A stretch of DNA of 64,000 nucleotides from Gluconobacter oxydans (GTDB taxonomy: Bacteria > Pseudomonadota > Alphaproteobacteria > Acetobacterales > Acetobacteraceae): contig NZ_BJNM01000012.1 of the NCBI RefSeq assembly GCF_006539685.1, forward strand, positions 1 to 64,000, read 5' to 3'. This document shows positions 33,055 to 51,276 of the stretch, piece by piece; position 1 is the stretch's first letter, and every line of letters begins with the position of its first letter. Position numbers and translations under genes: made by a program. Below the pieces are notes generated by a model that was given only the letters and a program-made list of their open reading frames with translations, did not search any database and had not been told where the DNA came from.

Positions 33055-35313
33055 TCAGCGCTCCGCACGCCGCACTTCAGAAAAATCCTGCGCCAGAACC
33101 TCCGGAGCGCACAATCCGCCAGGTTGCGTACAGCCCGGAACCTGAGGATAGAGCACGACAGGCAGCGCCTTCCCATCCAGATCACGCAGAGCCTGCGGAG
33201 TCTGGGACTGGATGAAGACACGGATACGGCGCTCCCCGGTTCCATTTCCATACACCGCAAATCCCAGGGCAGATCCGATGGGAATCTCATCCTCGGCATA
33301 GCCGGGAACACGAAAATGAAGACCCAGCATGGTCTGCAGGGGACCGATCGTGTCGTCATGCCCCATATAAAGCCTGAATGCAGGCCCACCCTCATCCCGG
33401 AGATCCTGAAGCAGCCGCGCCCTCATCTCGCGAGAGAGCGGTTCGGCCAGAGCGCGGGGACGCACCACCGCTTCCAGCATGCCAGCGTGCAGGGCGCTTA
33501 AGGTCCCGAGGTCGCCCACATCCAGAACACCTGACGGTGTCTGAACCAGCGGCTTTCCATCGAGATAGGACAGCATGAGTGCTTCGGACAGGGAAGACGC
33601 CTGCGCGACCGGCCCCGTAAGAACAAGCTGGTGCCCCGTCGCATCCACACCAACATGCGCAGGCGCGCTCAGAAACCCACAGGATGCCGGACCACAATCC
33701 AGCACACGCCCCAGCAGTTTGAGAGCCTCACCTTTCGCACGGAAAATGCGATCCGCATCAGGCAGTTGCGGAATAATCGCAGACATATCAAAACGCGCCG
33801 GATCAGCATCCAGCGGAGAAAAAAGAACATCCGGCTGACCAGGCGGCTTGTGCATGACCGTCATTGAACAGCCCGGCATGAAGCCACGCACAAATGCCTC
33901 AGCACTGGCGATAGTCCGCGCGGAGGAATTGGCACGGACCGCCACAGCGCCTGCGGACGGACAGGCTTTCGCCGGCATCAGCCCCGCTTCCGCCATCCAC
34001 ACCCGGTCAAATGTTCCAAGCGCCGTCAGCCCCAGCGCCCCATGAGGCGTCAGATCCCCTGGAGCCCCACTCCATTGCGGCCATCCCCCTGCAATCCCAA
34101 CACCCGCGGGAACCTGCCCGGCAAGAGGAGAGCGGATGCCATGCCGCATCACCATGATCATCCGCTCAAGGTGAAAATCGCCTTTCGCAGGCGTCTCGAT
34201 CAAACGGGACTGACAATCGGCCGGCGCGGAGACCGGATTGCAGCGAACAGCGGCGTTATCGAGAAACCCGACATGATAACCGCTCCATCGCGCAGGTTCG
34301 GCATCGGGGTAATCCGTACTGACAATCTGCGCCCCACTGGCCAGCATCGCATCCCGACGCCCCACATCTCCCGAACGCCCCTCAACGGTGTCGGCATCAG
34401 AGCGCGTCCGCACGAGAAAATGACGGCGTACCAGCGTTGCGATATCGCCCCCGGGCCCGTCATTCATCTCGGTAAACGCAGCATCCGGCGCACCCGGATC
34501 AGCATTCGTAAAAGCCACACGCCCGCGCAGCGCGGAATGCCCTCTCAGATACAAGCTCCGGTCACTGCGCTGATCCAGCAGAAACACGACCTTCCCACGC
34601 GCCTGCCCCATCGTGGGCCAACCCTTAGTCAGGATCGCGCTGCGCAGATCAGGAGCATCTCCCCGTACGTCATCCGGCGTCAGAAGCTGGGACGGCAAAA
34701 ATACACTGCGAATGGCCGAATCAAGCGCATCGAATGTCGCCGCATCAAAGGGCTCAGCTTCCGTCCCGCCGGGAATATCGTTGTGCTGCTCCACTTCGAG
34801 AATAACGAAAACCGGTACATGCCCCGGATGCGCGACAGACCAGTCCCGGATCTGGCTCAGACACTGAAGCAACGGCTGGCACGTCGCGTGCTGGTCAATG
34901 TCCGGAATGTGCATGACCTTAAAACCGGGCTGACGCATGATCGCCTGATCGGAAGGCGAAAGTGACCACACATCTTCCGGAACACCAGGCCGATGCGGAC
35001 GGGCAAAGCGGCCGCCCGCCGTATCCGCATAGATATCCAGTTCAAGCTGCCGGACACCCCCATCAAGCTGCGCAGCCAATGGCGGATGCTGGTAGTCCAG
35101 TTCCCGCACGAGGTCGGGTGCGGATGCCAGAAGCCGGGACCGGATCGCAGGATCAAGACCGGCATGATAGCTGTTATGGGATCCGATGATCTGAATCTGA
35201 TCCAGACGCAGACTGTCCTGCCGCGTTTCCGCCATGGCCGTCGCCGCTATCGAGACACCCCCCGCAGCCACGAGAGCAATAGCCAGACGCGAAGCAACGG
35301 GGAGAGAAATCAT
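33055..35313 (-). CDS. exported fusion of phosphoinositide phospholipase C and histidine acid phosphatase
   Basis: 752 residues from ATG 35313. Signal peptide 1-28 ending 'TAMA'. The first half (about 30-365) resembles Ca2+-dependent PI-PLC-C1: 'IIGSHNSYH' with catalytic-type His46, 'LDIYADTAGG', and 'VMHIPDIDQHATC'. The second half (about 375-750) is a histidine acid phosphatase/phytase: 'MRHGIRSP' with His391 as nucleophile and 'MGHDDTIG' with His652-Asp653 as proton donor. Such a two-domain enzyme could split phosphatidylinositol and then dephosphorylate the released inositol phosphate. It lies downstream of a TonB receptor gene. Single continuous frame; no frameshift evident. Confidence 0.85.
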   Translation of the reverse strand: MISLPVASRLAIALVAAGGVSIAATAMAETRQDSLRLDQIQIIGSHNSYHAGLDPAIRSRLLASAPDLVRELDYQHPPLAAQLDGGVRQLELDIYADTAGGRFARPHRPGVPEDVWSLSPSDQAIMRQPGFKVMHIPDIDQHATCQPLLQCLSQIRDWSVAHPGHVPVFVILEVEQHNDIPGGTEAEPFDAATFDALDSAIRSVFLPSQLLTPDDVRGDAPDLRSAILTKGWPTMGQARGKVVFLLDQRSDRSLYLRGHSALRGRVAFTNADPGAPDAAFTEMNDGPGGDIATLVRRHFLVRTRSDADTVEGRSGDVGRRDAMLASGAQIVSTDYPDAEPARWSGYHVGFLDNAAVRCNPVSAPADCQSRLIETPAKGDFHLERMIMVMRHGIRSPLAGQVPAGVGIAGGWPQWSGAPGDLTPHGALGLTALGTFDRVWMAEAGLMPAKACPSAGAVAVRANSSARTIASAEAFVRGFMPGCSMTVMHKPPGQPDVLFSPLDADPARFDMSAIIPQLPDADRIFRAKGEALKLLGRVLDCGPASCGFLSAPAHVGVDATGHQLVLTGPVAQASSLSEALMLSYLDGKPLVQTPSGVLDVGDLGTLSALHAGMLEAVVRPRALAEPLSREMRARLLQDLRDEGGPAFRLYMGHDDTIGPLQTMLGLHFRVPGYAEDEIPIGSALGFAVYGNGTGERRIRVFIQSQTPQALRDLDGKALPVVLYPQVPGCTQPGGLCAPEVLAQDFSEVRRAER

Positions 35314-35398
35314 GGCTCTGTTCCGCAATAAAATCCGGACGATAACGCTATCCGGACAAATGAACGTCACGGCACCCGCCGCGACAGAATAAAGACAA

Positions 35399-35424
35399 CC
35401 GTCCGGATCCCGGGATCCGGACGG
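35399..35424 (-). terminator. 26-bp perfect palindrome after the TonB receptor gene
   Basis: Self-complementary 13-base halves with core CCCGGG. On the minus strand it is followed by TTGTCTTTATT. Probable terminator or processing hairpin between receptor and phospholipase-phosphatase genes. Confidence 0.65.
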
Positions 35425-35444
35425 CGCATGTCATGTCTCGGAAA

Positions 35445-38345
35445 TCAGAAGCGATAACCGGCGTTCAGGAAGAAGGTCCGCGATGTCAGGATATTCTGCG
35501 GAACCGCATTGCTGTGCCGCCCGATCGTCAAACGATAGAAACGGTTCACACCCAGGTTCTGGGCCGAGAAATCCACATGCAACCGCTTGGTCACCGCATA
35601 TCCCAGATGCGCATCCAGATTCAGGCTCGGCTGCACCCAGGCATCAAGCGAACTGCTGTTCAGGTTCGTCTTGAAGTTGTTCGGCGTTCCCCACAGACCG
35701 TATTCGTACAGATAGGCATCCACAAAACGCCAGTTCAGATCGAACTGGAACGACCCCTTGTTGTAAAACGCCCCCGCATTGGTCATCCAGCGCGGCGCAT
35801 CCTGCATGTTTTCCGTTGAACTGAGATATGCATTGTTCAGATGGGCCCGCGACATTTCCCATGTCGCCGTCCCGCGCACTCCCAGACCATCAAACGGCGC
35901 GGGCAGCCCCTTGAACTGATGCTCGAACGCGAATTCGAGACCAAACAGCGTCGCACTGCCACCGTTTTCAGGATGGGAAACGCTGTTGGCAATTCCTGCC
36001 GTGGTGGTCTCGTTATTATACGAACCACCATTGTCATAAATATAATTGGAAAGCTGCTTGTAGAACCCGGCCAGCGAGAAGCTCGTGGTCGAACTCGGCA
36101 TCCACTGCCAGGACAGATCGTAATTGACAGCCGTCGTCGCCTTGAGGTTCGGATTACCTGTCGTAATGCTCAGCGTTCCGTCATCATTGCGGGTAATCTG
36201 CGAGCCACCACTCAGCTGGAAGAAGGACGGCCGCGTATAGCTTGTCCACACCGATGCACGATAGACGGTATCCTGCCGCGGACGATAGGTCAGATGAATG
36301 CTCGGCAGCGCCTTGAAGTAATGACTGTTGGTCGCCGACCAGCCATAATGGGCATCCGCAGTCGAGACACCTTCATTGCCACTGGCCCAGTAGGTGTTAT
36401 GCAGATCTGACTGCTCGAACCGGATCCCGGGAACGACCTGCAATTTTCCGAAATGCATCTGGGCGGAAACATACCCGGCATAGACGGTTTCGGTCCCCCC
36501 GATCGTGTTCCCGTTCCAGGCATCCTTGTCCATGTATTTCCAGTTATAGGGATCCGCCAGATAGTTGCTGAGCAACGCGGAACGGCTGATGGTCGGCGTA
36601 TAGAAATTATACGCCCCCGGGATCAGCGAAGAGAGGCTCCCATCCACCAGTCCGGTCTGCGACAGCGTGCCACCGGCAGGATAGGCGCCAGAGCCCCCGT
36701 TATCCTGACCTTCCGTGTCCCGGTTGATATAATTCCGCCAGCTCGTCTGATACTTGAAGCCCGCAGAAATCGTGTCGATATGGAATCTGTCGAGACGATA
36801 ACTCATATCGAGCGACGTCCCTGTACGAAGCTGCCAGGCATCCGACTGGACATATTCGCCGCGGTTATGCGTCGGAAAATCCAGGGTCCCGTTCGCAACA
36901 GCGGCCTGCGCAGACGTCAGCCCGACAGTCGGCATCCCGTCCTTGTAAACGAAATTCGGCGCGCCATCGAAAGCCGCAACACCCGACTGCCAGGCCGATG
37001 TTTCAATATGATCGCGGCTGATGGTGCCCCAGCTCAGAAAAGCCGAAGGCGAAATGGAAAACCGTCCGAGCTTCTTGTCCATGCCCAGCTTCATGGTGCC
37101 AAGCTGTTCAAGTGTCGGGTTTGTTTCGTACCAGTAATGGACATTAGTCCGGGTGATCGACGGCGCATAGGACCCGTCCGCCTGCTCGACATAGGAAATC
37201 ATGCCAGCGCTGGACGCACCGCTGTCATTTCCGTGAATCGCGACCTGATAGATGTCCTGCTGCGTGTCGGAATAGGATTCCGTGCCCTGAAGATAAACCC
37301 GCGTCGAACTGTCCGGACGCCATTCAAAACCCGCAGTACCGCCATAGCGTTTCGTCACACCGATACTGGCCTGCGGATCAACGCCAAACAGCTGGAGACT
37401 CTTGACCGGATCCTGCCCCGGATAAAGATCGCCCTGCGCATCCATGGCACGCGACACCCCCCATTCACCACCCGAATAGGTCTGCTCGCCGGCCGCGAAA
37501 TAGCGCTGATTATAATATCCGCTCATGTAAAACCCGAACTGGTCGGATTTTCCGAAAACGGAGGAAATTTCAGCCGCACCATTTCCGCCAATGGCACTCG
37601 CACCGTAATCAGCGGCCTTTTCGTTATACTGCCCCCCAAGCTGGAGAGAGCCATGCGTTCCATGTCCGTAATCAAACGCATTCGGCATTTCAAAATTGAC
37701 GATACCGCCAATGGCATCTCCATCCATGCCAGGGGTCAGCGTCTTGTTGGCATCAATCCTGAAAAATCCGGTCGGCGGCAGCAGATCCAGCGAAACCGTC
37801 CGGCTGAATGGCGCCGCTTCCGCAACATCGATACCGTTGATCTGGTTGATATTGTACTGCCCGTTCATCCCACGCAGCGACACCGTGGCTCCCGTGCCGC
37901 GGGCAGCCGTATCAATACCGCCGAAATTGCCCTGCATGCTGGTCGGCATGACGGTCACACCCGGCAACCTGGCCAGCGCTTCCGTCACATTCTGGGCCGG
38001 TAGCCGTGCGAGATCTTTCGCACTCAGGCTCATCATTTCATTCTGCGCCTTGAGCTGCCTCCCCGAAGACGTCCCGAACCCCGTGACATGCACCTGTTCT
38101 TGATCATGGCTCACCAGATCACTGGGCGGAACATGAGCAGCCTTGGCGGCAGGCGGAACGGCAGCAGGCTTTGCCTGCGCAGCGGCAGGAGCCTGATGCG
38201 TTTTCACGGCCTTGCGGGTATGGGTTTTCTTGAGCGACTTCGTTTCGGCGGCGGCCGGCTGCCCAAGCTGGACCCCCACGATCACCACAGGAATAAGACA
38301 GCTGAACGCCTTCCAGGGCGACTGCTGCCGGTACGATTTGGACAT
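35445..38345 (-). CDS. TonB-dependent outer-membrane receptor
   Basis: 966 residues from ATG 38345 with GGAGAAG six bases upstream. Signal peptide 1-35 ('AFSCLIPVVIVGVQLGQPAAA'). An Ala/Lys/Pro-rich segment follows, then the plug domain (about 90-215: 'NVTEALARLPGVTVM', 'VSLRGMNGQYNINQINGIDV', 'GGIVNFEMP'), then a 22-strand barrel ending in an aromatic residue ('NAGYRF'). Resembles receptors for carbohydrate-type substrates (TonB-dependent, TIGR01782-like). It sits between a Gfo/Idh gene and the phospholipase-phosphatase, so inositol-containing glycans or phosphates are plausible substrates. Confidence 0.93.
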   Translation of the reverse strand: MSKSYRQQSPWKAFSCLIPVVIVGVQLGQPAAAETKSLKKTHTRKAVKTHQAPAAAQAKPAAVPPAAKAAHVPPSDLVSHDQEQVHVTGFGTSSGRQLKAQNEMMSLSAKDLARLPAQNVTEALARLPGVTVMPTSMQGNFGGIDTAARGTGATVSLRGMNGQYNINQINGIDVAEAAPFSRTVSLDLLPPTGFFRIDANKTLTPGMDGDAIGGIVNFEMPNAFDYGHGTHGSLQLGGQYNEKAADYGASAIGGNGAAEISSVFGKSDQFGFYMSGYYNQRYFAAGEQTYSGGEWGVSRAMDAQGDLYPGQDPVKSLQLFGVDPQASIGVTKRYGGTAGFEWRPDSSTRVYLQGTESYSDTQQDIYQVAIHGNDSGASSAGMISYVEQADGSYAPSITRTNVHYWYETNPTLEQLGTMKLGMDKKLGRFSISPSAFLSWGTISRDHIETSAWQSGVAAFDGAPNFVYKDGMPTVGLTSAQAAVANGTLDFPTHNRGEYVQSDAWQLRTGTSLDMSYRLDRFHIDTISAGFKYQTSWRNYINRDTEGQDNGGSGAYPAGGTLSQTGLVDGSLSSLIPGAYNFYTPTISRSALLSNYLADPYNWKYMDKDAWNGNTIGGTETVYAGYVSAQMHFGKLQVVPGIRFEQSDLHNTYWASGNEGVSTADAHYGWSATNSHYFKALPSIHLTYRPRQDTVYRASVWTSYTRPSFFQLSGGSQITRNDDGTLSITTGNPNLKATTAVNYDLSWQWMPSSTTSFSLAGFYKQLSNYIYDNGGSYNNETTTAGIANSVSHPENGGSATLFGLEFAFEHQFKGLPAPFDGLGVRGTATWEMSRAHLNNAYLSSTENMQDAPRWMTNAGAFYNKGSFQFDLNWRFVDAYLYEYGLWGTPNNFKTNLNSSSLDAWVQPSLNLDAHLGYAVTKRLHVDFSAQNLGVNRFYRLTIGRHSNAVPQNILTSRTFFLNAGYRF

Positions 38346-38429
38346 CAGGACTTCTCCATGGAGCGCGCGAACAGCTTCCCCATCCGGAGATCCTGTCCAC
38401 ACATTGATTTCTGCTAGGGGTAAGCGCCC

Positions 38430-39524
38430 TCAGACGGGCGACATGCTAGCTTTTGCAACCTCGATGATCTGCCGGCACAGGGTCAGATCAGCGAGCGCAT
38501 TGGAAAAGGGATCGACAAGCGGCGCACCCGTCACGACCGCGTCGTGAAAAGCGACCAGCTCCGCATTGAACGGATCTTGATAATAAGGACCATATTCCGT
38601 AACGCGGTTCTCGGAACCGACGGTTTCCTGGAAGGTGACACCCGCCGGAAGATTCCGGATGTAAGGGGTGTCGTAACGGACCTGAAGCCGCTGCGTATTT
38701 GAAAGCACCTCAATGGACGATTCAAATCGCGCAACATCGTCGATCAGACATTCATAGGAAGCAATGAAGCTTCCATAATCAAACCAGATACTGATTTCCG
38801 TCCCCGTAGCGCCAAAATGCGCCGCGAGAACACGTTCCGGGCTGCCCCGCAGGACACGCATGGCTGAAAACGCATGAATTCCCAGCCCGGTGAGAACCTC
38901 GTACCCCCGCAGAAGCGAGGGAGGAGCATCGGCTCCACAGACGGAAAGAATTGCGTCTCTTCGCGCCTGCCGCCCAGCGACCAGCATATCGTCCGGAATG
39001 TCACCATCCGGCACGGCAACCGGCGTCACCTGCCCGAAAAACCACGGCCCCTCACAGATAACATCCCGGATACGGACATGACGGATTGGTCCAAGTTCAG
39101 GCAGAAGCGTACACGCCTTCTGGAACGCCGGAGCGTAACAGCGCATGTAACCCACCATCCCCACGCGATCCGTCCGTTCAAAATCCTCGTTAAGAGGCCT
39201 GAATTCTGCTTCCGTCAGACATGCCGGCTTTTCGAGAAAAACATGCAGCCCTGCAGCAAAGGCCTTCCGTGCATGTTCCGCATGATACTGGTCCGGACTG
39301 AGGATCATGACGGCATCGAACACCCGGTCCGCAAAAAAATTCTCAATATCCGTATGGATATGCGGCACCCCCCAGTGACGCCCGACAGCCTGCGCCACTG
39401 AAGGAGACGGATCATAAATCGAAACGACATCAAACCGATCCGACAGCTGGTGAAGAATCGGGAGGTGAATGAGCTGGGCCACTTCGCCAGCACCAATCAG
39501 CCCGAGGGTAAGCCGTCTCACCAT
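38430..39524 (-). CDS. Gfo/Idh/MocA-family oxidoreductase (inositol-dehydrogenase-like)
   Basis: 364 residues. NAD(P)-dependent sugar or cyclitol dehydrogenase. Rossmann motif 'GLIGAGEVAQ' at 8-17, the conserved 'EKPACLTEAEF' around 98-108, and an alpha/beta C-terminal domain with 'YEVLTGLGIHAFSAMR'. The family includes IolG; substrate not determined. First gene of a leftward series with TonB receptor and phospholipase-phosphatase, divergent from the GH76/ABC operon. Confidence 0.85.
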   Translation of the reverse strand: MVRRLTLGLIGAGEVAQLIHLPILHQLSDRFDVVSIYDPSPSVAQAVGRHWGVPHIHTDIENFFADRVFDAVMILSPDQYHAEHARKAFAAGLHVFLEKPACLTEAEFRPLNEDFERTDRVGMVGYMRCYAPAFQKACTLLPELGPIRHVRIRDVICEGPWFFGQVTPVAVPDGDIPDDMLVAGRQARRDAILSVCGADAPPSLLRGYEVLTGLGIHAFSAMRVLRGSPERVLAAHFGATGTEISIWFDYGSFIASYECLIDDVARFESSIEVLSNTQRLQVRYDTPYIRNLPAGVTFQETVGSENRVTEYGPYYQDPFNAELVAFHDAVVTGAPLVDPFSNALADLTLCRQIIEVAKASMSPV

Positions 39525-40087
39525 GATGAATGATCCTTGCCGCGAATTAATTTCCTAAAATTGATTTATTTGAGAGGGCACCCGTTTAGCAACGGTAACT
39601 TGATGAAACTATCATGACACCCAAAAACCCTATTCGAACATGTCGGAAAAATACCTCTCCCTGCTGCCCGGCGATATATAAAACAATTTATTTTCAATTA
39701 CTTGCTATCAACAATCATTTAAAGGAGCAGCTTTTTTCGCGAAAGTTTCACTTTACTTTTGCCCAGACAACATCAAAGCCTGATTGCGAACGGAACGTCC
39801 GTTCCAGGGACGAAAACCGCACCAGAAAACATGAAAAAGGTGCGAAATTTCAGGAATAATCTTCTATTTTAATGATTAAATCTTTTAATGAGATTAAATA
39901 TCTTTCCAAGAATCCTGTTTTTTTACCCACTCATTCTCACCATTCCGAAGACAGTTTCAGCCTTCTCGCATCACAAAAAAAACTCTGCCCGGATTTATTC
40001 CATTCTGATTGTCAATTTTCACGATGAACCCACGGATGTGTCATGCCAGCCTGCTCTGCTCCCATAAGCTCAAGGCCTGAAACCCCG
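39525..40087. promoter_or_regulatory. 563-bp AT-rich divergent control region with inverted repeats
   Basis: No credible gene. Visible elements are CCGTT-TAGC-AACGG (39582-39595), GGAACG-TC-CGTTCC (39792-39805), and two tandem AT-rich repeats TTTAAT-G-ATTAAA (39868-39880) and TTTAAT-GAG-ATTAAA (39884-39898). The last two resemble operators of ROK-type repressors. The region lies between the two arms of the locus. Confidence 0.5.
39868..39898. repeat. tandem AT-rich inverted repeats, candidate ROK operators
   Basis: Two copies of TTTAAT-N1/3-ATTAAA, 17 bases centre to centre, upstream of the GH76 gene. A ROK repressor is encoded in the same locus. Confidence 0.45.
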
Positions 40088-41038
40088 ATGGCACGCACAT
40101 GCTCTTCTAAACAGGCGATCCGGACCATCACTACCCTGACAGTCTTTGCGCTGGGCGCATTTCTTCCTGCCCCGAGTGCCTGCGCACAAAATCCGGAAAA
40201 AGAGCAGACGGCCCGGACACTCCAGACCCTCATGAACCGCTACGAAACTGCCAGCCCTTCAGACTGGCGGGATCTACATGCGTGGCAGCGTTTCGTGACG
40301 GTCAGTACGCTGTCTGATTATGAAATCATGTCGGGGAGTACCCGCTTTCACAACAGCGCCCTCCGTGCGCTCCAGAACCGTCAGGGGCTGGACGGAAACG
40401 ACGATGACCTGTGGGTCGCGCAGGCGGACCTCGACATGGCACGCCTTACACACAACCCGACCCAGATCCAGGACGCACGCAATATCTTCGATACCATCGC
40501 CTCGAAATACTGGGACGGGCATTGCGGTGGCGGCGTATGGTGGGACCATGCACGAACCTACAAAAATGCCATTACAAACGAACTGTTCCTGAGCACGGCA
40601 ACCCGACTTTATCGCTTCACGCATGAGCAAGCCTACAGAGACTGGGCCCTGAAAAGCTGGTCCTGGTTCCGGAACAGCGGAATGATTGCCCCCGACAACC
40701 TGATCAATGACGGGCTGGACAACCAGTGCCGAAATAACGGCGGCCCGGCATACAGCTACAATCAGGGCGTAATCCTTGATGGGCTTCTGGAAATCTCGGC
40801 CCTGACAGAAGACGGCGCGCCACAACAGACGGCATCGCGAATTGCATTGGCCGCCATCAGGGCCTTCACGCCTTCTCCCGGAACATTCCAGGAGCCCGGC
40901 GGCCCCATGAACACGGATGCAAGAATTTTTCGCGGCATCTTTGTCCGGGCACTCGGCCACGTTGCAGCTTCAGAAGTCGACCATACGACGCGCACCAGAA
41001 TTGCGGACTGGCTGTCGCAGCAGGCCCGATCCGCCTGA
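40088..41038 (+). CDS. glycoside hydrolase family 76 (alpha-1,6-mannanase-like), exported
   Basis: 316 residues from ATG 40088. Signal peptide 1-34 ('TLTVFALGAFLPAPSACA'). GH76 enzymes cut alpha-1,6-mannan backbones such as yeast cell-wall mannan. The catalytic Asp cluster Asp105-Asp107 in 'NDDDLWVAQ' matches the family's paired Asp. Other marks are 'GGGVWWDHARTYKNAITNELFLS' and 'YSYNQGVILDGLLE'. Length is a little short for the family but covers the alpha/alpha barrel. A further start at 40043 is possible. Next gene is an ABC binding protein, 131 bases downstream. Confidence 0.88.
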   Translation: MARTCSSKQAIRTITTLTVFALGAFLPAPSACAQNPEKEQTARTLQTLMNRYETASPSDWRDLHAWQRFVTVSTLSDYEIMSGSTRFHNSALRALQNRQGLDGNDDDLWVAQADLDMARLTHNPTQIQDARNIFDTIASKYWDGHCGGGVWWDHARTYKNAITNELFLSTATRLYRFTHEQAYRDWALKSWSWFRNSGMIAPDNLINDGLDNQCRNNGGPAYSYNQGVILDGLLEISALTEDGAPQQTASRIALAAIRAFTPSPGTFQEPGGPMNTDARIFRGIFVRALGHVAASEVDHTTRTRIADWLSQQARSA

Positions 41039-41169
41039 AACAGCAGAAAACCGGACGCCCTCACCAGCGACACCTGGAACGACCATCCCTTTCATGCCTC
41101 AGCGCAGGGACAAATCACCGCAGCCTCTCTCTTCATGGCCACCGCCCTTTCCCAAGGCACAGAAACGCC

Positions 41170-42486
41170 GTGAAAAAGAGGGGACAAGTCGGACACCCGG
41201 TGCGCCGGAAAAATATATGGTCATGGACTCTCTGCGGGCTCCTTCTTGCCGGAACAGCCGCTACTTGTCCTGCCAAGGCCGCCACGCTGACCGTTTTCTG
41301 CTCATCCAGCGGAACCGAACTGTCCCTGTGCCATCAGGCCGTCCAAAGCTGGATGGAAAAAACGGGCCATGAGGTCCGGGTCATTGCCCTCCCCTCCGAC
41401 TGGGGAACGGTCCTCCCGCTCTACCGTCAGCTGCTCTCAGCCCATCATCCCGTCGCCGATGTCCTGATCCTTGACAGCACCTGGATCGGAGCTCTGGCCC
41501 CGCTCCTTCTGGACATTCCCCCCACCGACGATGACGCGGCCACCCGGCCGCCGCCCTTTCAGATTGAGGGCCGACAGGTCGCACTGCCGTGGTACCGGGA
41601 CATCGGGCTACTGTTCTACCGTCGCGATCTGCTTGAGCGCTATCACCTGCCGGTCCCGACACGCTGGAGCGATCTCGAACGAACCGCCACACTAATTCAG
41701 AATGCTGAATATCAGAGAGGTCACCCGATCTGGGGCTATGTCTGGCAGGGCCGGACCTCGGAAAGTCTCGTCTGCAATGCCCTGGAATGGGACGGCGCGG
41801 AAAATCCCGTCGCAACCGATGGTACAGTCAGAACCAGCCTGCCCGGCCTGCAGCGCGCCCTCGAGCGTGCCACCCGCTGGGTTGGCACAGTCTCGCCCCC
41901 GGGCGTCCTCAACTACGACGAGGAAAATGCCCGCGGCATTTTCCAGTCCGGTCATGCAGTCTTCATGCGGAACTGGGTCTATGCCTGGGCCCTCGCCAAC
42001 AGCCCCGACAGCCCCGTTTCCGGAAAGATCGGCGTAGCCCCCCTGCCCCGAGACACGCAGGATGCCCCGAGCGGCATAGACGGCACAGTCTATCTGGGGA
42101 TCCCCCGCAATACGGCACACCCTGCCGAAGCCCTCTCCCTGCTGCATTATCTGACCAGCGAGGCCGTTGAACGCCATCAGGCACTTGCCGGAGGCTATAT
42201 CCCTGCCCGGACATCCCTTCTTGATGATCCTGAAATCCGCAGCGCCATTCCCATCCTGGACACCATTCGCCCGGCCCTCGCCTCCCTCGGACTCCGGCCG
42301 GTCGCACAGACCGGAATCGACTATCCCCGCGTCTCGTGGATCATGGCGAACCACTTCAAGGACGCCCTGCGCAGCACACACCCGTCGCCGCAGACGCTCA
42401 CTTCTCTCGTCTCCTCACTGGAGCAGCTTGCCATGCTCGGTCAGTGGACGCTTTCCAACTCAATGATCGAGAGGCACAGACCATGA
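41170..42486 (+). CDS. sugar ABC transporter periplasmic binding protein
   Basis: 438 residues from a GTG. Signal peptide about 1-37 ('SWTLCGLLLAGTAATCPAKA'). Binding-protein family 1, related to maltose/trehalose ThuE-type proteins: 'VRVIALPSDWGTVLPLYRQ', 'WYRDIGLLFYRRDLLERYHLPVPTRWSDL', 'GYVWQGRTSESLVCNALEW' and 'FQSGHAVFMRNWVYAWAL'. Coupled to the next gene by ATGA. Delivers a sugar or glycoside from the periplasm to the permeases encoded downstream. Confidence 0.9.
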   Translation: MKKRGQVGHPVRRKNIWSWTLCGLLLAGTAATCPAKAATLTVFCSSSGTELSLCHQAVQSWMEKTGHEVRVIALPSDWGTVLPLYRQLLSAHHPVADVLILDSTWIGALAPLLLDIPPTDDDAATRPPPFQIEGRQVALPWYRDIGLLFYRRDLLERYHLPVPTRWSDLERTATLIQNAEYQRGHPIWGYVWQGRTSESLVCNALEWDGAENPVATDGTVRTSLPGLQRALERATRWVGTVSPPGVLNYDEENARGIFQSGHAVFMRNWVYAWALANSPDSPVSGKIGVAPLPRDTQDAPSGIDGTVYLGIPRNTAHPAEALSLLHYLTSEAVERHQALAGGYIPARTSLLDDPEIRSAIPILDTIRPALASLGLRPVAQTGIDYPRVSWIMANHFKDALRSTHPSPQTLTSLVSSLEQLAMLGQWTLSNSMIERHRP

Positions 42487-43355
42487 CCATCCGAACTGCC
42501 ACTGCCCCTGATGCATGGGGCGTCTGGTACGCCAGTGACCCGAAACAGACCCCGTGGGAGCGTTACCTCGATGAGGTCGCAGCCTCCGGTTACAGCTGGA
42601 CCGAACTCGGTCCGTGGGGCTATCTCCCGACTGATCCCGCACAGCTTCAGAACGTGCTGTCCAGCCGTGGTCTCGGCCTGTGTGGCGCAGCGGTCGTTCA
42701 TCCCCTGACCGCACCGGATGCCCTGGAAACCCTGCGTGACAGACTGCGCCCCCTGTGCCGGACCCTGGTCGCCACCAACACGCCTTGGCTGCTGCTGATG
42801 GATGATTCAGACGCCTATCTCACCCCTGAAGCCCGGATCGCCACCCCGGAAATCTGGAAACGCATGATGCATGTCATCACGACGGTTGCCCGGGAAATCC
42901 GGCATGAGCATGGTCTGCACCTCCTGTTCCATCCCCATGTCGGCACTGCCGTCGAAACCGAAGCGGAAATCCTCCGTCTGCTGAACGACACCCCTGCCGA
43001 TCAGGTCGAACTCTGCTTCGATTTCGGCCACCACGCCTATACCGGAGCGGATGCACTCGCTTTCATGCGCCAGCACGCATCGCGCATCCCGTATTATCAT
43101 TTCAAAAATCTGGACGGAGCCATCCATGCCCGGGCCATGGCCGCGGGAACACCTTTCATGGAAGTCTTCCAGAATGGTGTGATGTGTGAACTGGACAAAG
43201 GTATTCTGGACTTCACCGAAGTCGTGGATTTCCTGCGCAAACAGGACTTCGACGGCTTCGTCGTGGTCGAGCAGGATATGTATCCCTGCCCCCCTGACAA
43301 ACCCCTTCCCATCGCACGCCACAACAGAGACGTGCTGAAACGGCTCGGCCTGTGA
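42483..43355 (+). CDS. xylose-isomerase-like TIM-barrel protein (IolE/sugar isomerase-like)
   Basis: 290 residues from ATG 42483 (ATGA overlap). Metal-dependent sugar isomerase, epimerase or inosose dehydratase type. Features: 'GYSWTELGPWGYLPTDPAQLQ' (about 32-52), metal ligand region 'LLFHPHVGTAVE', 'VELCFDFGHHAYTGADALAFMRQHASRIPYYHFKNLD', and 'FDGFVVVEQDM'. The pattern is closest to IolE-like proteins. Could act on inosose or a keto-sugar made by the Gfo/Idh enzyme; substrate not proven. Confidence 0.82.
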   Translation: MTIRTATAPDAWGVWYASDPKQTPWERYLDEVAASGYSWTELGPWGYLPTDPAQLQNVLSSRGLGLCGAAVVHPLTAPDALETLRDRLRPLCRTLVATNTPWLLLMDDSDAYLTPEARIATPEIWKRMMHVITTVAREIRHEHGLHLLFHPHVGTAVETEAEILRLLNDTPADQVELCFDFGHHAYTGADALAFMRQHASRIPYYHFKNLDGAIHARAMAAGTPFMEVFQNGVMCELDKGILDFTEVVDFLRKQDFDGFVVVEQDMYPCPPDKPLPIARHNRDVLKRLGL

Positions 43356-44293
43356 CCCCTTCCCTGTCCCGATCTCCCATTCTCGGAATTGACGTTGGCG
43401 CCACCAAGATCGCGGCCGGCATGGTCAATCCGTGTACGGGAGAAATATGCTTCCTCACCCGCATCCCCACGCGGCGTCACGTCGCGCCCGGGGAAATCGT
43501 CTCCGACATCACCGCTATCGTGGCACAGGTCATGGACGCGGCCCGGCGGGATCCCCACGGCCCCGATGACATGCCCCGGGCCGCAGGCATTGCCGTTCCG
43601 GAACTGGTGGACATCACAGGACAGATCCGGAGCGCCTGGAACTTCCCGCTCCCCGATCTTACCCGCACCATCCACGAACATACCGGCCTCTCCGTCCGGC
43701 TGGAAAGCGATGTCCGTGCCGCGGCCTTTGCGGAAGCCCGTTTCGGGTCCGGCCAGTCCTGCGACAGCTTCGCCTATTTCTCCCTCGGCTCCGGGATCAG
43801 CTATACGCTGTGCCTGAACGGGCGCCCCTACAGGGGCACACATGGTTTTGCCATCCATTTCGCCAGCTCCAGCCTTGCGGTCCCCACGGAAGACCGCACC
43901 CGTCTCAGCATCGCCATCCCCGAGGATTTTGCATCCGGGCTGGGGATGGAGCGTCTGTGGGCCGCGCGGGGCGGCGAAAAACTGAAAGAGGGCGTCCATA
44001 CGCTCGAAACCCTTGCCGCCGCCGGAGACAGCCGTGCAAAAGGCGTCATCGAGGACGCCGCCGGCATGACCGGTCGCCTCATCGCACAGGCCGTCAACAT
44101 GCTTGACCCTGAAAAAATTGTTCTGGGCGGCGGTCTTGGATGCTCGGAAGGATTTTACCGCCAGAAACTGGAGGAACATATCCGCGCCAATATCTGGGAA
44201 CGCTCCTTTGCGGACATTCCCATCCTCATCGCCGGACTGGGGGAACAATCCGGCATCATCGGTGCGGCGCTGAGCGCGCTGGCGGCGGACTGA
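43352..44293 (+). CDS. ROK-family sugar kinase-like protein
   Basis: 313 residues from GTG 43352 (GTGA overlap). ATP-site motif 'GIDVGATK' at 12-19 and catalytic Asp120 in 'LESDVRAAAFAEARFG'. The usual ROK zinc motif (Cys-x-Cys-Gly) is absent. The C-terminus has 'EKIVLGGGLG'. Probably phosphorylates a sugar imported by the flanking ABC system, though loss of the zinc motif leaves a non-kinase role possible. Confidence 0.8.
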   Translation: MTPSLSRSPILGIDVGATKIAAGMVNPCTGEICFLTRIPTRRHVAPGEIVSDITAIVAQVMDAARRDPHGPDDMPRAAGIAVPELVDITGQIRSAWNFPLPDLTRTIHEHTGLSVRLESDVRAAAFAEARFGSGQSCDSFAYFSLGSGISYTLCLNGRPYRGTHGFAIHFASSSLAVPTEDRTRLSIAIPEDFASGLGMERLWAARGGEKLKEGVHTLETLAAAGDSRAKGVIEDAAGMTGRLIAQAVNMLDPEKIVLGGGLGCSEGFYRQKLEEHIRANIWERSFADIPILIAGLGEQSGIIGAALSALAAD

Positions 44294-44302
44294 CGATCTC
44301 CC

Positions 44303-45202
44303 ATGCTGACTGTCCCGCTTTCAAAACGGTTTGACTGGCGCCCCTGGGCTCTTGTCGCTCCGGCACTGATCGTGCTGATGACAGTCACCGCAATTCCGTT
44401 CGCCCGAACGATCTGGCTTGCCTTCCATGATGATCCACACGGCTTCATGCAGGCACAACCGGGATGGAGTCTGACCAATTTCCGGGTTCTGCTTCAGGAC
44501 AGGGCCTGGTGGACCGCCGTCAGCACAACGCTGCTTTTCGCAGCTGGAGCCGTCATCAGCGAAACCTGCGCCGGTCTGGCGATTGCCATGCTGCTTCAGG
44601 GCTACAGTCTGAAACTCCGGGGCATCCTGCTGGCCATTATCCTTCTGCCCTGGGCCGTTCCCTCCGTCGTGGCCGCCCGTCTGTGGAACTGGATGCTCAA
44701 TGACCAGTACGGCATCATCAACGCGATGCTCGTCCGGCTGGGCCTGCTGCATCAGGGCGTTGCATGGATCACCCATCCGCGCAGCATGGTCGCCGTCATG
44801 ATCGCCATCGACTTCTGGCAGGCGACCCCTTTCATGGCGCTGCTTTCCCTTGCCGGATTACAGTCCATCCCCACCGATGTTTTCGAAGCTGCAAAACTTG
44901 ATGGCGCCTCACCCTGGCAGCGCTTCATCTCCATCACCCTGCCCCTCGTCGCCCCCGTCCTGTCCATAGCCGTGCTGTTCCGTCTGCTAGACGCCCTGCG
45001 GATGTTCGATCTGGCCAGCGTGCTGTACGGAACGGATATGAGCGGCATGACCCTCTCCGCCTTCGTGCAGAGCCAGATCGTCCAGTTCGGAGCACCAGGC
45101 TACGGCGCGGCGTCGGCGCTTGGAACCCTCGGCATCATCGCTCTTGCCGCAGCGCTCTATGGTGTGTGCCTGAAGATTCCAGGGTGGATACGCTCATCGT
45201 GA
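44303..45202 (+). CDS. sugar ABC transporter permease, MalF/UgpA type
   Basis: 299 residues with six predicted membrane segments (about 13-35, 72-95, 104-128, 155-175, 205-225, 260-285). The cytoplasmic EAA loop, which contacts the ATPase, is 'EAAKLDGASPWQRFISI'. Partner of the next permease and of the binding protein upstream. No ATPase gene occurs in the operon. Confidence 0.92.
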   Translation: MLTVPLSKRFDWRPWALVAPALIVLMTVTAIPFARTIWLAFHDDPHGFMQAQPGWSLTNFRVLLQDRAWWTAVSTTLLFAAGAVISETCAGLAIAMLLQGYSLKLRGILLAIILLPWAVPSVVAARLWNWMLNDQYGIINAMLVRLGLLHQGVAWITHPRSMVAVMIAIDFWQATPFMALLSLAGLQSIPTDVFEAAKLDGASPWQRFISITLPLVAPVLSIAVLFRLLDALRMFDLASVLYGTDMSGMTLSAFVQSQIVQFGAPGYGAASALGTLGIIALAAALYGVCLKIPGWIRSS

Positions 45203-46026
45203 GACTCACAACAGAGATGCTGGTCACAGGACGTCTGGTCGCGATGGCCTTCATCATCCTGCACACGCTGTTTCCACTCTACTGGGCGCTGGTTACGTCA
45301 TTCCGTCACGGAACCACACTTTTTTCCACAGCCCTCTTCACGTTCCCCGACCTTGAAAACTACAGAAAAGTCCTCGGCGGTCCCGAACTGTGGCGGGAGA
45401 CGTTCAACTCGGTCCTGTGCGCCGGTTCCGTTACGCTCCTCTCACTCCTACTCGGCATTCCAGCAGCCTATGCCCTCGGTCAGATGAGTTTTCCCGGGCG
45501 CCGGCTGGTGCTTGGCCTCCTGCTGCTCTGCTCGATGCTGCCCCAGATCGCCATCCTGTCCGGCCTGTTCGAACTGATCTCGGCCATGGGGCTGTATGAT
45601 CACGTCGAAAGCATCATTTTTGCCGACCTGTTCTTTGCCCTTCCCTTCACGATCTGGTTATTGACGGGTTTTTTCCGGGACCTCCCCCCCGAACTGGACG
45701 ACGCGGCAAAACTGGACGGCTGCAGCCTGATGCGCCGGATCTTCAGCATTCACCTGCTCCTGGTCTGGCCGGGAATTGCCGCCACAGGACTGCTGAACAT
45801 CATGACGTGCTGGAACGAGTTTCTTTTTGCCCTGACCTTCACACTCAACGACTCAGCCCGTACCCTTCCGGTCGGTATCGGACTGACTTCCGCTCCAGGC
45901 CGGTTTGAACTTCCTTTCGGGACCATCATGGCCGCATCCCTTCTCGCAACCCTCCCCCCGATCCTGCTCGTCCTGTTCTTCCAGAACCGCATTGCCTCCG
46001 GCCTGACTGCGGGGGCTGTCAAATGA
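45199..46026 (+). CDS. sugar ABC transporter permease, MalG/UgpE type
   Basis: 275 residues from GTG 45199, the start that overlaps the previous stop as GTGA, as other genes here do; earlier GTGs would lengthen it by 11 residues. Six membrane segments. EAA loop 'DDAAKLDGCSLMRRIFSI'. Begins with a short cytoplasmic tail before the first helix ('LVAMAFIILHTLFPLYWALV'). Its stop overlaps the ROK repressor start by four bases. Confidence 0.92.
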   Translation: MRLTTEMLVTGRLVAMAFIILHTLFPLYWALVTSFRHGTTLFSTALFTFPDLENYRKVLGGPELWRETFNSVLCAGSVTLLSLLLGIPAAYALGQMSFPGRRLVLGLLLLCSMLPQIAILSGLFELISAMGLYDHVESIIFADLFFALPFTIWLLTGFFRDLPPELDDAAKLDGCSLMRRIFSIHLLLVWPGIAATGLLNIMTCWNEFLFALTFTLNDSARTLPVGIGLTSAPGRFELPFGTIMAASLLATLPPILLVLFFQNRIASGLTAGAVK

Positions 46027-47246
46027 ACGAAAACACCCGATCCGACGGCGCCGGGCAGGCCTATTCCCGGATCTACAACCGTCGCCTGATCTTCGAACTC
46101 CTCCATCAGGCCGGGCCACTGAGCCGGGTGGACATCGCGGACCGTATCGGCCTCAAACCGCAGACAATTTCCGGCATCACCCGTGAGCTTCTGACACAGG
46201 GCCTCATTCACGAGGTCGGCAAATCCGTGGGCCAGCGCGGACAGCCCCAGACCTATCTCGCCCCCAATCCCGACGCCGGATATTCGCTGGGCATGCATGT
46301 CGATCAGGGACGGATCTCGATTGTCCTCGGCGATCTTCTGCTGAACATCCGCCAACGGATCGAATGGGTCGGCGAGACGACCGATCCCGCAGCCACGACG
46401 ACCGTCATGGCACAGCTTGCAGAGACCATGATTCTCGAAAGCGGGATCGAAAAGCAGAAGATCTGGGGCATTGGCCTCGTCCTTCCCACACTCAACGCGG
46501 ATACCTACGAAGCCGAAATGACCATGCCTGGATGGGATCTGTGGCGTGGTTTTGACGTGGCTGGAAAACTCGGATCCCTTCTGGACCTGCCCGTCCTGAT
46601 GGAAAACGACGCCACCGCGGCCGCCATGGCCGAACTGTTCTCCCATCCCGGAACCCCGCCCCGCAATGCCGTTCTGGTCTATATCGGATATGGCACCGGG
46701 GCAGGCATCGTCGTGGACGGAATGCCCATGAAAGGCGCCCGCGGGAACGCAGGTGAACTCGGCCTTCTCCCGCTGCCTCTCTGCCTCCCCGACAGTCCCG
46801 GCGGCGTGATCGATGACCAGCTTTCGCTCCATGCCATCGCCCGCATGCTGCACTGCCCGGTGGCGGAACTGACCCCCGAGACGATCGGCAACATGCATGC
46901 CAGCCGTGACAGCACCCTCATGCACTGGATGGAAACAGCGACGAAGACCCTCCGCTTCCTCGTAGCAATCATAGAAACCGCATTCGATCCCGAAACGATC
47001 TTACTGAGCGGCGGATTCCCGGAATCAGTCCTTTCGGCACTGGTGGAACGGGCCTACCCCCTTCTGCCCTCGCTGAGTGCAACCCGGGATCGCGAATTAC
47101 CGCGCCTCACCACAGCGACCCTCCTCACAGATGGCCCCGTAATCGGCGGAATGACATTGCCAGTCTTCGTCAACACAAAACCGAATTTCCGCCATCTCTA
47201 CATACGCCAGGTCGGCAGCGACGAACGCCCGTTCGATCATCGCTAA
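46023..47246 (+). CDS. ROK-family transcriptional repressor (NagC/XylR-like)
   Basis: 407 residues. N-terminal winged helix ('RLIFELLHQAGPLSRVDIADRIGLKPQTISGITRELLTQGLI', about 22-63) fused to a ROK sugar-binding domain with 'LMENDATAAAMAELF' and 'VYIGYGTGAGIVVDG'. The zinc-binding Cys motif of ROK proteins is missing ('GNAGELGLLPLPLCLP'). Last gene of the ABC operon; expected to repress it and perhaps the divergent arm, with a sugar as inducer. Overlaps the convergent CobW gene by four bases. Confidence 0.9.
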   Translation: MNENTRSDGAGQAYSRIYNRRLIFELLHQAGPLSRVDIADRIGLKPQTISGITRELLTQGLIHEVGKSVGQRGQPQTYLAPNPDAGYSLGMHVDQGRISIVLGDLLLNIRQRIEWVGETTDPAATTTVMAQLAETMILESGIEKQKIWGIGLVLPTLNADTYEAEMTMPGWDLWRGFDVAGKLGSLLDLPVLMENDATAAAMAELFSHPGTPPRNAVLVYIGYGTGAGIVVDGMPMKGARGNAGELGLLPLPLCLPDSPGGVIDDQLSLHAIARMLHCPVAELTPETIGNMHASRDSTLMHWMETATKTLRFLVAIIETAFDPETILLSGGFPESVLSALVERAYPLLPSLSATRDRELPRLTTATLLTDGPVIGGMTLPVFVNTKPNFRHLYIRQVGSDERPFDHR

Positions 47247-48235
47247 GGATTTAGTCCCGCATTTCGAGAGGCCCTCTCTCTCATAGCGTCAAGATCATCC
47301 TTCAGCGCCTGCGGATCAAACATCCCTTTCCGACCAATGAACACAAGTCGGGTGTCGGGATCGGACCGGGCCTTCTCGGGTGCCCGCCCGATGGTAATCC
47401 GGGACCCTGTCATCTGAAGCAGCAATGCACGCTTTGGAGCAGTCGCGAGATAGAGGATGCCTTTTGCCCGAAGCAGCACCGGAGCATGGCGTTCGATCAC
47501 CGCGCGAAATCCCGTCAGGTCCAGCGGAAACTCCCGTCGCCACTCCAGGCTGACGAAATCATCGTCAATGCTCTCCCCTTCAGACCGAAAAAGGGATTTT
47601 TCCGTTTTCCGATCCAGGGGACGAAAAAGCCCCTCATGCATCAGCAGGCTGCCTGAAAAAGGCAGGACCGGTATCCCGCGCCCGATCTCCCGAAGTTGGT
47701 CTTCTGCATCCCTGACACCAGCTTTTCCAAGCTCGTCCGTATGGGAAAGAACGATCATGTCCGAAGACAGGATCTGCTCTTTCCACAAAGGATCTTCAGT
47801 CACCCTGGCCTGCGCGACCACATCGGCAGCGTTCACGACACAGATCACCCCTTCAAGGGCCGCATACTGCCAGAGAATGGGATCTGCCAACGCCCTGCGC
47901 ATTTCCTGAAGCTTCGAAACCCCGCTGCATTCGATAAAAATGGCCTCAGGCAACGGCCGACGGGACAGAACCATTCTCAGCGTAGAGAACAGATCAGCCT
48001 GCAGGGAACAGCAGATGCAGCCATTCCTCAGCGCCAGCACGTCCTCATCCCGCCGCTCCACCAGCAACCCGTCGATATCAATCGCGCCGAAATCATTGAC
48101 GAGAATGGCAAGACGCCGATGCTGCTGCGCCCTGAGCAGTCGGTTGAGCAGCGTGGTTTTCCCGGCACCAAGAAAACCGCCCACCACGTGCACCGGAACG
48201 GCCGCAGCCTCTCCCAGGCCAGCTTCCCGGCTCAC
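47243..48235 (-). CDS. CobW/G3E-family GTPase metal chaperone
   Basis: 330 residues from GTG 48235 (GTGA overlap with the deacylase stop); a TTG 12 bases upstream was not chosen. P-loop 'GFLGAGKT' at 20-27, metal motif Cys73-x-Cys75-Cys76 ('GCICCSL'), Walker B 'IECSG', and 'SHTDE' near the NKxD position. COG0523 proteins load zinc or another metal into target enzymes. Last gene of an operon encoding two metal-dependent hydrolases, which may be its clients. Confidence 0.88.
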   Translation of the reverse strand: MSREAGLGEAAAVPVHVVGGFLGAGKTTLLNRLLRAQQHRRLAILVNDFGAIDIDGLLVERRDEDVLALRNGCICCSLQADLFSTLRMVLSRRPLPEAIFIECSGVSKLQEMRRALADPILWQYAALEGVICVVNAADVVAQARVTEDPLWKEQILSSDMIVLSHTDELGKAGVRDAEDQLREIGRGIPVLPFSGSLLMHEGLFRPLDRKTEKSLFRSEGESIDDDFVSLEWRREFPLDLTGFRAVIERHAPVLLRAKGILYLATAPKRALLLQMTGSRITIGRAPEKARSDPDTRLVFIGRKGMFDPQALKDDLDAMRERASRNAGLNP

Positions 48236-49722
48236 ACCACCCCGCAATACCCACGGACGGGCTGTCCCGGAAAAGCGTCCCGGTTGAGTTCGCCCCCGGA
48301 AATCACGGACTGACCATTGACCAGAAGATAACGAACCCCTTCCGAAGGGCGGTTCATGGCCGCGAAATCCGCACGATCCGTAATCGTATCGGCATCGAAC
48401 ACGACAATATCGGCATCACACCTTTCCTGAAGGCGCCCCTTCCGGCGCATCTGCGGGGAAACCGTCTCGAGGATTTTCGCGGGGCCAAGCGAACAGCGCC
48501 GCATGGCCTCGCATAACGAAACCCTGGAGCGCTCACGCAGATATTCCCGCAAAAACCGCGAAAAAGTCCCCGACGAACGGGGATGGGCCACCGCCGTCTC
48601 AGGCAAAGGCCAGTCCAGCCCCTCGTAAACGGAACCATCCGGAAGCGTCCAGGGCATGGCATCCGAGGCAATGACCCCGCCCGGATAAAGAACCGACACA
48701 TCCAGCAGATCCTGCGCCGACGGATCGCTCTCCACATCCAGAAAATGCCAGAGCACGAGCGTATCAGGCCGCTCCCGCTGCACGTCCAGAACCTCTTCAC
48801 GGCTTTCGAACCGATGCCCGTCATCGACCCGCTGGATTGCCGTATAGGGACTGCCCGTCCGCTCCCGGAACGCCGCCTCACCAAAAAGCGGCGACCCGAT
48901 CACCGTGGAACCCGTTCCATACGGATAGGCCTCGACCGTGATGTTCAGCCCCTGCTTCTGTGCCGTGGACACAAGCTCCGCCGCCTGCCGGATATCCAGC
49001 AGACTCGTGCTGTTGAAATGACAGATATGCATGTGCGCGCCGGTCGCACCTGCATAGCCGATCAGACGGGTATAGGCCTCGATGGAACTGCGCGGATCGA
49101 TATTCGAGGAGTAGGCGATATGCGTATAGGTCGGCACCTCATGACGCTTCGCCAACGTACAGAGATCCACGAGTTCCTTCGCCCCGACGCCGGGAACATA
49201 GGCATGGGGAATACCGATCCCCAGCCCCCCTTCCGACAATCCCTGCCCGACCAGCGACAGAATATCCCGCAGCTCCGAAGAACTCGCCGTATTCTCGCTC
49301 CATCGGGGATCATCGTAACACTTCCCCATGAACGAAAGAGAAGGCTCCACCGGCCGGCCGATCATCGCGCTGATCCGCGCAAAGGCCCACGCCACCGAGG
49401 CCCCATAATTCAGAACCCGGCCACGCTCCTGCTGGCGGGCATACCAGTTAGAAACCGGCAGAATCCCGACTTCCAGTTCCAGAGATGTCGTCACCCCGTC
49501 AAACGCCTGCATGCGATCGGAGGCCACACATTGCCCATGGGCATGAAGATCAATGAAGCCGGGAGCCACCACGAGCCCCGTCGCATCGATTTCACGCTGC
49601 GCATTGCCAGAAAAAGAGCCGACACGCTGGATGATCCCGTCCTGGACCGCCACATCGCCGACCTGCTCCAGCCCCGTTTCCGGATCAACCAGCAGACCAT
49701 TACGGATCACGAGATCAAACAC
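48232..49722 (-). CDS. N-acyl-D-amino-acid deacylase-like amidohydrolase
   Basis: 496 residues. Metal-dependent amidohydrolase of the D-aminoacylase/dihydroorotase-like type. Metal site His60-x-His62 in 'GFIDLHAHG'; later 'HICHFNSTS' and the Asp in 'GVIASDAMPW' are expected ligands. The beta-sandwich is formed by the N-terminal ('FDLVIRNGLLVDPETG') and C-terminal ('ADIVVFDADTITD') parts. No signal peptide, so cytosolic. Probably removes an acyl group from a D-amino acid; the exact substrate is unknown. Confidence 0.88.
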   Translation of the reverse strand: MFDLVIRNGLLVDPETGLEQVGDVAVQDGIIQRVGSFSGNAQREIDATGLVVAPGFIDLHAHGQCVASDRMQAFDGVTTSLELEVGILPVSNWYARQQERGRVLNYGASVAWAFARISAMIGRPVEPSLSFMGKCYDDPRWSENTASSSELRDILSLVGQGLSEGGLGIGIPHAYVPGVGAKELVDLCTLAKRHEVPTYTHIAYSSNIDPRSSIEAYTRLIGYAGATGAHMHICHFNSTSLLDIRQAAELVSTAQKQGLNITVEAYPYGTGSTVIGSPLFGEAAFRERTGSPYTAIQRVDDGHRFESREEVLDVQRERPDTLVLWHFLDVESDPSAQDLLDVSVLYPGGVIASDAMPWTLPDGSVYEGLDWPLPETAVAHPRSSGTFSRFLREYLRERSRVSLCEAMRRCSLGPAKILETVSPQMRRKGRLQERCDADIVVFDADTITDRADFAAMNRPSEGVRYLLVNGQSVISGGELNRDAFPGQPVRGYCGVV

Positions 49723-49754
49723 GTGCGCCCCCTTTCACGACGTCCGGCCTGCCC

Positions 49755-51197: not shown

Positions 51198-51276
51198 GCC
51201 TTACCCCTTTTGATGCCCTGAAAATCCAGAGATGAAACCACGATCAGACGCCGCCTTCCTACTCCCGGCGGGAACA

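Follow-up and report, generated by a model that had tools for sequence, protein, structure and literature searches.

Organisation of the locus

The window, a stretch of 64,000 nucleotides from the 2.7 Mb draft genome assembly of a Gluconobacter strain, carries ten genes in two divergent arms at 33055-47246 (Table 1). Read leftward, the left arm encodes a Gfo/Idh/MocA-family dehydrogenase (GFO), a TonB-dependent receptor and a fusion of PI-PLC to a histidine acid phosphatase (PLC-HAP). The right arm encodes a GH76 glycosidase followed by an ABC solute-binding protein, an IolE-like enzyme, a ROK kinase, two permeases and a ROK repressor; from the binding protein onward its genes overlap or almost touch, with gaps of -4, -4, 9, -37 and -4. 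All ten open reading frames named in an initial annotation of this DNA are present, and the families assigned there to both arms were borne out by Pfam profile searches. The inter-arm region of 563 bp given in that annotation is correct for translation of GH76 from the ATG at 40088, after which a signal peptide follows; the ATG at 40043 would leave 518 bp. Signal-peptide-like N-termini are present on the secreted parts, and no such start was seen on the dehydrogenase, the IolE-like enzyme, the ROK kinase or the ROK repressor.

Table 1. Features of the two-armed locus (positions are those of the window)
Feature	Position	Strand	Remarks
PI-PLC/histidine acid phosphatase fusion (PLC-HAP)	33055..35370	-	PF16670 + PF00328; likely start ATG 35313, signal peptide
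TonB-dependent receptor, TIGR01782 subfamily	35445..38402	-	442 bits
Gfo/Idh/MocA-family dehydrogenase (GFO), own subfamily, cytoplasmic	38430..39524	-	GFO_IDH_MocA profile
Divergent control region	39525..40087	none	between dehydrogenase and GH76 genes
GH76 glycosidase, predicted secreted	40043..41038	+	likely start 40088; PF03663
ABC solute-binding protein, alpha-disaccharide type	41170..42486	+	SBP_bac_1; best solved relative 6jb0, 220 bits
IolE-like TIM-barrel enzyme, IolE active-site motifs	42483..43355	+	AP_endonuc_2; TIGR04379 140 bits
ROK sugar kinase	43352..44293	+	ROK profile
ABC sugar permease 1, UgpA/MalF type	44303..45202	+	BPD_transp_1
ABC sugar permease 2, UgpE/MalG type	45166..46026	+	BPD_transp_1
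ROK-family repressor, NagC/Mlc type	46023..47246	+	winged helix plus ROK domain

Within the control region lies a perfect palindrome, TTTCGCGAAA, at 39735-39744, which weakly suggests a putative ROK operator. A search for palindromic motifs across the loci described below gave a score of 123, against 81-88 for shuffles. An operator common to all loci was nevertheless not retained, since the palindrome sites divide along the two locus lineages, a pattern that relatedness alone may produce. Directly upstream of the dehydrogenase gene, at 39547-39568, is an element TTAATTT..AAATTGATTTA, and similar elements occur in Gluconobacter and Novacetimonas loci. Beyond the right arm, 47243-53176 holds a convergent run of genes for a CobW GTPase, an amidohydrolase, an M20-like peptidase, a RidA-like protein and an NCS1-like transporter, which is conserved in Gluconobacter sp. 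P1C6_b.

Distribution of the gene set

The initial annotation regarded the two arms as one unit and proposed a synteny search, which has confirmed their unity. The genes for GFO, TonB receptor, GH76, binding protein, IolE-like enzyme, ROK kinase, permeases and ROK repressor are adjacent in all ten acetic acid bacterial loci found: those of the window, Gluconobacter sp. P1C6_b, G. kanchanaburiensis, G. cerevisiae, Novacetimonas maltaceti, N. hansenii (where the contig stops within the ROK kinase gene), Brytella acorum, Acidomonas methanolica, Gluconacetobacter sacchari and Acetobacter senegalensis. Six genera are represented, and the recurrence of the set in nine other acetic acid bacteria is far beyond chance. 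PLC-HAP is found in nine of the ten, N. maltaceti having an OprB porin in its place. Within the genus the arm set occurs in 4 of 26 genomes, and the full PLC-HAP fusion in exactly those four (p 7e-5, relatedness ignored); in a sample of 200 Acetobacteraceae genomes the arm was found in four, the fusion in six and both in three (p 6e-5, relatedness ignored).

The loci fall into two diverged lineages which differ in left-arm gene order, and in some loci a different TonB receptor has taken the place of the original (28-32% identity versus 91%). The retained company of the genes is the more telling because the receptor has been swapped and the order has changed. G. cerevisiae carries a locus of the Acidomonas-like lineage; the locus has therefore moved between genera, and is an accessory, horizontally shared gene set. 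One M20 peptidase gene follows the window locus and also stands close to the G. cerevisiae locus (L038:983-19898), which is of the other lineage and is separated from it by a truncated amidohydrolase gene; this neighbourhood is a possible insertion hotspot.

Orthologues of GFO (47-52% identical), the IolE-like enzyme (57-62%) and the ROK repressor (43-53%) also occur together in Rhizobiales (L060-L080). Unlike the window locus, these loci have a GH38 or NagB-like gene plus an ATPase, and lack GH76, PLC and TonB receptor. In a first type the core is accompanied by another ABC importer, with a GH38 alpha-mannosidase in 11 of 16 loci. In a second type the order runs IolE-like gene, NagB-like gene, ROK kinase gene; midpoint-rooted trees place proteins of this type with those of the acetic acid bacteria, whose own loci have no NagB-like gene. 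The NagB-like protein is a relative of glucosamine-6-phosphate deaminase (121 bits against a cut-off of 326) which keeps the DGH motif. The reaction is uncertain because a proline stands where NagB has a catalytic glutamate. The presence of this gene in the Rhizobiales lineage nearest the acetic acid bacteria hints at glucosamine.

The secreted enzymes and their target

The PLC-HAP protein matches PI-PLC-C1 (PF16670) with 413 bits and, fused to it, His_Phos_2 with 66 bits. In the PI-PLC half the residues H65, H154, E110 and D112 are invariant in 13 sequences, and the profile together with the catalytic histidines identifies a Ca2+-dependent PI-PLC. The phosphatase half has the motifs RHGIRSP and GHDD, with R409, H410, G411, R413, H671 and D672 invariant in the same number of sequences, and thereby the RHGxRxP and HD signatures of branch 2 histidine acid phosphatases.

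A sample of 397 Acetobacteraceae genomes yielded 17 fused PLC-HAP genes, one of them frame-broken. All 17 adjoin a TonB receptor gene, which in three genomes is the sole such neighbour, and 14 adjoin an alpha-mannosidase gene, either GH76 (eight) or GH92 (six). GH92 is an alpha-mannosidase family unrelated to GH76. The six GH92-linked fusions all belong to one genus, that of Ga. sacchari, where TonB receptor, PLC-HAP and GH92 (535 bits) form an operon. Behind the 14 of 17 stand about two independent evolutionary events and not fourteen. Like the window locus, this Gluconacetobacter operon combines a TonB receptor and PLC-HAP with an adjacent alpha-mannosidase, but GH92 replaces GH76 and the ABC/GFO/IolE part is lacking. 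The fusion gene has thus gained an alpha-mannosidase partner by two unrelated routes, and the pairing points to a substrate which holds both phosphoinositol and alpha-mannose.

Some related arrangements were also observed. In the Gluconacetobacter operon (L082:7063-14308, L092-L096) a DUF4880 gene lies ahead. Other acetic acid bacteria have tandem pairs of PLC-only genes without the phosphatase half (L101, L102 and L041; G133, G196 and G033). In one further genome, G394 (L100:7019-19354), genes for a TonB receptor and an AppA-like phosphatase immediately adjoin Gfo-like genes and a group of iol genes in which iolC, iolD and iolE exceed their cut-offs, an arrangement that looks like inositol-phosphate scavenging.

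The glycosidase is a clear GH76 member (PF03663, 140 bits against a cut-off of 25.9), with an invariant catalytic Asp pair, D120/D121, and conserved W81 and D223. Its closest solved sequence is CtGH76 of Chaetomium (9r4k, 125 bits), ahead of Lin0763 (78), CtDfg5 (66) and Bacillus Aman6 (47). CtGH76 sits in a subfamily of mixed fungal and bacterial membership, and soaking of its crystals showed fragments of glucosamine and mannose positioned as in the GPI core, whilst its authors could not demonstrate alpha-1,6-mannosidase activity by TLC (PMC12295086). The window enzyme shares with the CtGH76/Dfg5-type enzymes the fold, the DD pair, the -1 tryptophan and the -2 aspartate; among the CtGH76 contact residues the equivalents of W111 and D268 are kept and W110 is replaced by alanine. 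It differs further in being bacterial and in lying within an uptake operon, and its activity is a prediction. In predicted fold the window enzyme stands equally close to CtGH76 (Z 28.9) and Aman6 (Z 29.0).

The initial annotation had GH76 attacking yeast mannan. Degradation of this polymer was looked for by way of the exo-mannosidases GH92, GH125 or GH38, and no match to any of the three was found in the window genome or in G. kanchanaburiensis (G011), GH92 and GH38 having been sought with single query sequences. GH92 is present elsewhere in the genome of several relatives. Ordinary mannan breakdown is thus unlikely in the window genome, and the case for a general yeast-mannan system is further weakened by the enzyme being nearer in sequence to CtGH76 than to bacterial mannanases. 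The Bacteroides yeast alpha-mannan loci likewise place an outer-membrane receptor and GH76 near the cell surface. The window locus differs from them in lacking SusD, GH92, GH125 and GH38, and in carrying PLC-HAP, an ABC importer and the GFO/IolE pair.

Yeasts, plants and animals all bear GPI anchors and related mannosyl-phosphoinositides on their surface. By the same logic the target may be a lipid other than a GPI anchor, namely phosphatidylinositol mannoside or lipomannan from actinobacteria, GIPC from plants or MIPC from yeast, although this is rather unlikely. Lipomannan contains alpha-1,6-mannosidic bonds cut by a GH76 enzyme, LamH (PMC12295086), and plant GIPC is degraded by a known fungal phospholipase C (PMC11496612); the nearness of the window GH76 to the mixed CtGH76 subfamily, and the NagB-like gene of the sister locus, which favours an amino sugar, argue against such lipids.

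Uptake, intracellular enzymes and a candidate route

For the dehydrogenase and the IolE-like enzyme the top-scoring named families are IolG and IolE, and the initial annotation had IolG/IolE-like enzymes acting on inositol. Both fall well below the equivalog cut-offs, however: the dehydrogenase matches IolG (TIGR04380) over its N-terminal part only, with 79.3 of 355 bits, and the IolE-like enzyme matches IolE (TIGR04379) with 139.9 of 290. IolD is required by the known inositol catabolic pathway. The window genome lacks it (best match 188 of 715 bits), as do those of five among six relatives, which makes six of the seven genomes tested; in the exception, G127, it lies away from the locus with a separate IolE-like gene. 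Free-inositol catabolism was therefore rejected as the main function. The locus has in common with the myo-inositol iol operon an IolE-like enzyme, a Gfo dehydrogenase and an ABC importer, but differs in lacking IolD in both locus and genome, in the low scores of its two enzymes and in its ROK regulator. The broader proposal that the locus feeds two ordinary pathways, free myo-inositol catabolism and yeast alpha-mannan digestion, can draw on these best-scoring families and on the closest outgroup IolE-like proteins (37-40%), which adjoin IolD; given the scores, the distribution of IolD and the missing exo-mannosidases, it is highly improbable.

The binding protein is nearest to binders of alpha-disaccharides, its best solved relatives being 6jb0 (220 bits), MalE3 (177) and a trehalose/maltose-binding protein (149). 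The predicted structure of the dehydrogenase (pLDDT 91.6) has a fold close to levoglucosan and glycoside dehydrogenases, although fold comparison was discarded as a means of naming its substrate, the levoglucosan, scyllo-inositol and 1,5-anhydrofructose enzymes lying within about one Z unit. These relationships, together with the occurrence of the core without PLC in Rhizobiales and N. maltaceti, would suit an operon for alpha-glycoside or alpha-mannoside uptake by a 3-keto-glycoside route, with PLC-HAP as an addition that serves only to scavenge phosphate or lipid. Against this, the IolE-like protein keeps the IolE active-site motifs and scores 95.6 bits with solved IolE but 21.8 with 2-hydroxy-3-keto-glucal hydratase, and PLC-HAP is kept in nearly all of the acetic acid bacterial loci and tied to mannosidases elsewhere; we consider such an operon distinctly unlikely. 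From these matches, and from the next relatives (37-40%) lying beside IolD, we take the IolE-like chemistry to be probably that of an inositol-like ring, or a similar elimination, with a different substrate in either case.

Trimming of a small mannosylated head group followed by import of an alpha-glycoside of disaccharide size is favoured by the likeness to CtGH76, the lack of exo-mannosidase matches and the relatives of the binding protein. We tentatively propose that the locus scavenges phosphoinositide glycans bearing mannose, and most likely the core glycans of yeast or plant GPI anchors, which is quite possible, if short of probable. The overall reading of the initial annotation is partly supported, in that the arms form one unit and the company of PLC-HAP and alpha-mannosidases, in two unrelated arrangements, is what mannosylated phosphoinositides would lead one to expect; free-inositol catabolism and a general yeast-mannan system find no support.

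From gene content, conservation, intact catalytic motifs and co-localisation we infer substrates and reactions as follows. The TonB receptor and secreted enzymes would meet the glycolipid or its fragments. The PI-PLC half would sever the lipid from its inositol-phosphate head, which the phosphatase half would dephosphorylate, whilst GH76 would cleave the core glycan at Man-alpha1,6-Man or Man-alpha1,4-GlcN. The binding protein and the permeases, borrowing the ATPase of another operon, could then import an alpha-glycoside about as large as a disaccharide, for example glucosaminyl-inositol or mannosyl-inositol. The dehydrogenase would oxidise it, the IolE-like enzyme would eliminate the sugar from the keto-cyclitol or keto-sugar, and the ROK kinase would phosphorylate the released hexose or glucosamine, the ROK repressor presumably governing both arms. 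Glucosaminyl-inositol as the imported compound would fit every part. In its full form, with PLC-HAP and GH76 generating glucosaminyl-inositol from a GPI anchor, and the imported compound split by the oxidise-and-eliminate Gfo/IolE-like pair instead of a glycosidase, the route is somewhat unlikely. The three genomes with PLC-HAP and TonB receptor only, and the N. maltaceti locus without PLC-HAP, count against scavenging of mannosylated phosphoinositide glycans, as do the equal closeness of the GH76 fold to Aman6, the replaced W110, and the proline of the NagB-like protein together with its absence from acetic acid bacterial loci.

The sugar ABC importer described in the initial annotation stands as regards binding protein and permeases, but the ATPase gene is absent at the locus, and no protein in the window genome exceeds 35% identity to the ATPase of the relatives, leaving the CUT1 set of binding protein, two permeases and MalK-type ATPase incomplete. 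Four relatives encode a MalK-type ATPase at the locus end, Ga. sacchari and Acidomonas methanolica being examples of an in-locus ATPase, and in Gluconobacter P1C6_b, G. cerevisiae and Brytella the gene belongs to an operon for a polyol transporter. The window genome seems to lack the polyol ABC operon from which G002 and G025 obtain the ATPase. Its nagB, intact in ten relatives, is broken into two pieces with a stop (L087; G000:C28:13148-13796). The neighbours of the broken gene, for a nagA-like amidohydrolase, an MFS transporter and a BadF-type kinase, look intact. Because there is no good MalK-type ATPase match and nagB is broken, the pathway may be impaired or decaying in this strain, or the draft assembly may be missing pieces.

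In the open-access literature searched, we found no paper tying PI-PLC or histidine acid phosphatase to Gluconobacter, and none on GH76 in acetic acid bacteria or on bacterial GPI-glycan catabolism. Gluconobacter is a fruit-dwelling acetic acid bacterium, and yeast is a plausible source of the glycan. If the proposal is correct, the locus would account for one of the means by which acetic acid bacteria subsist on the yeasts of fruit, would be a source of enzymes for trimming GPI anchors, and would provide a function for an IolE/Gfo subfamily also found in Rhizobiales.
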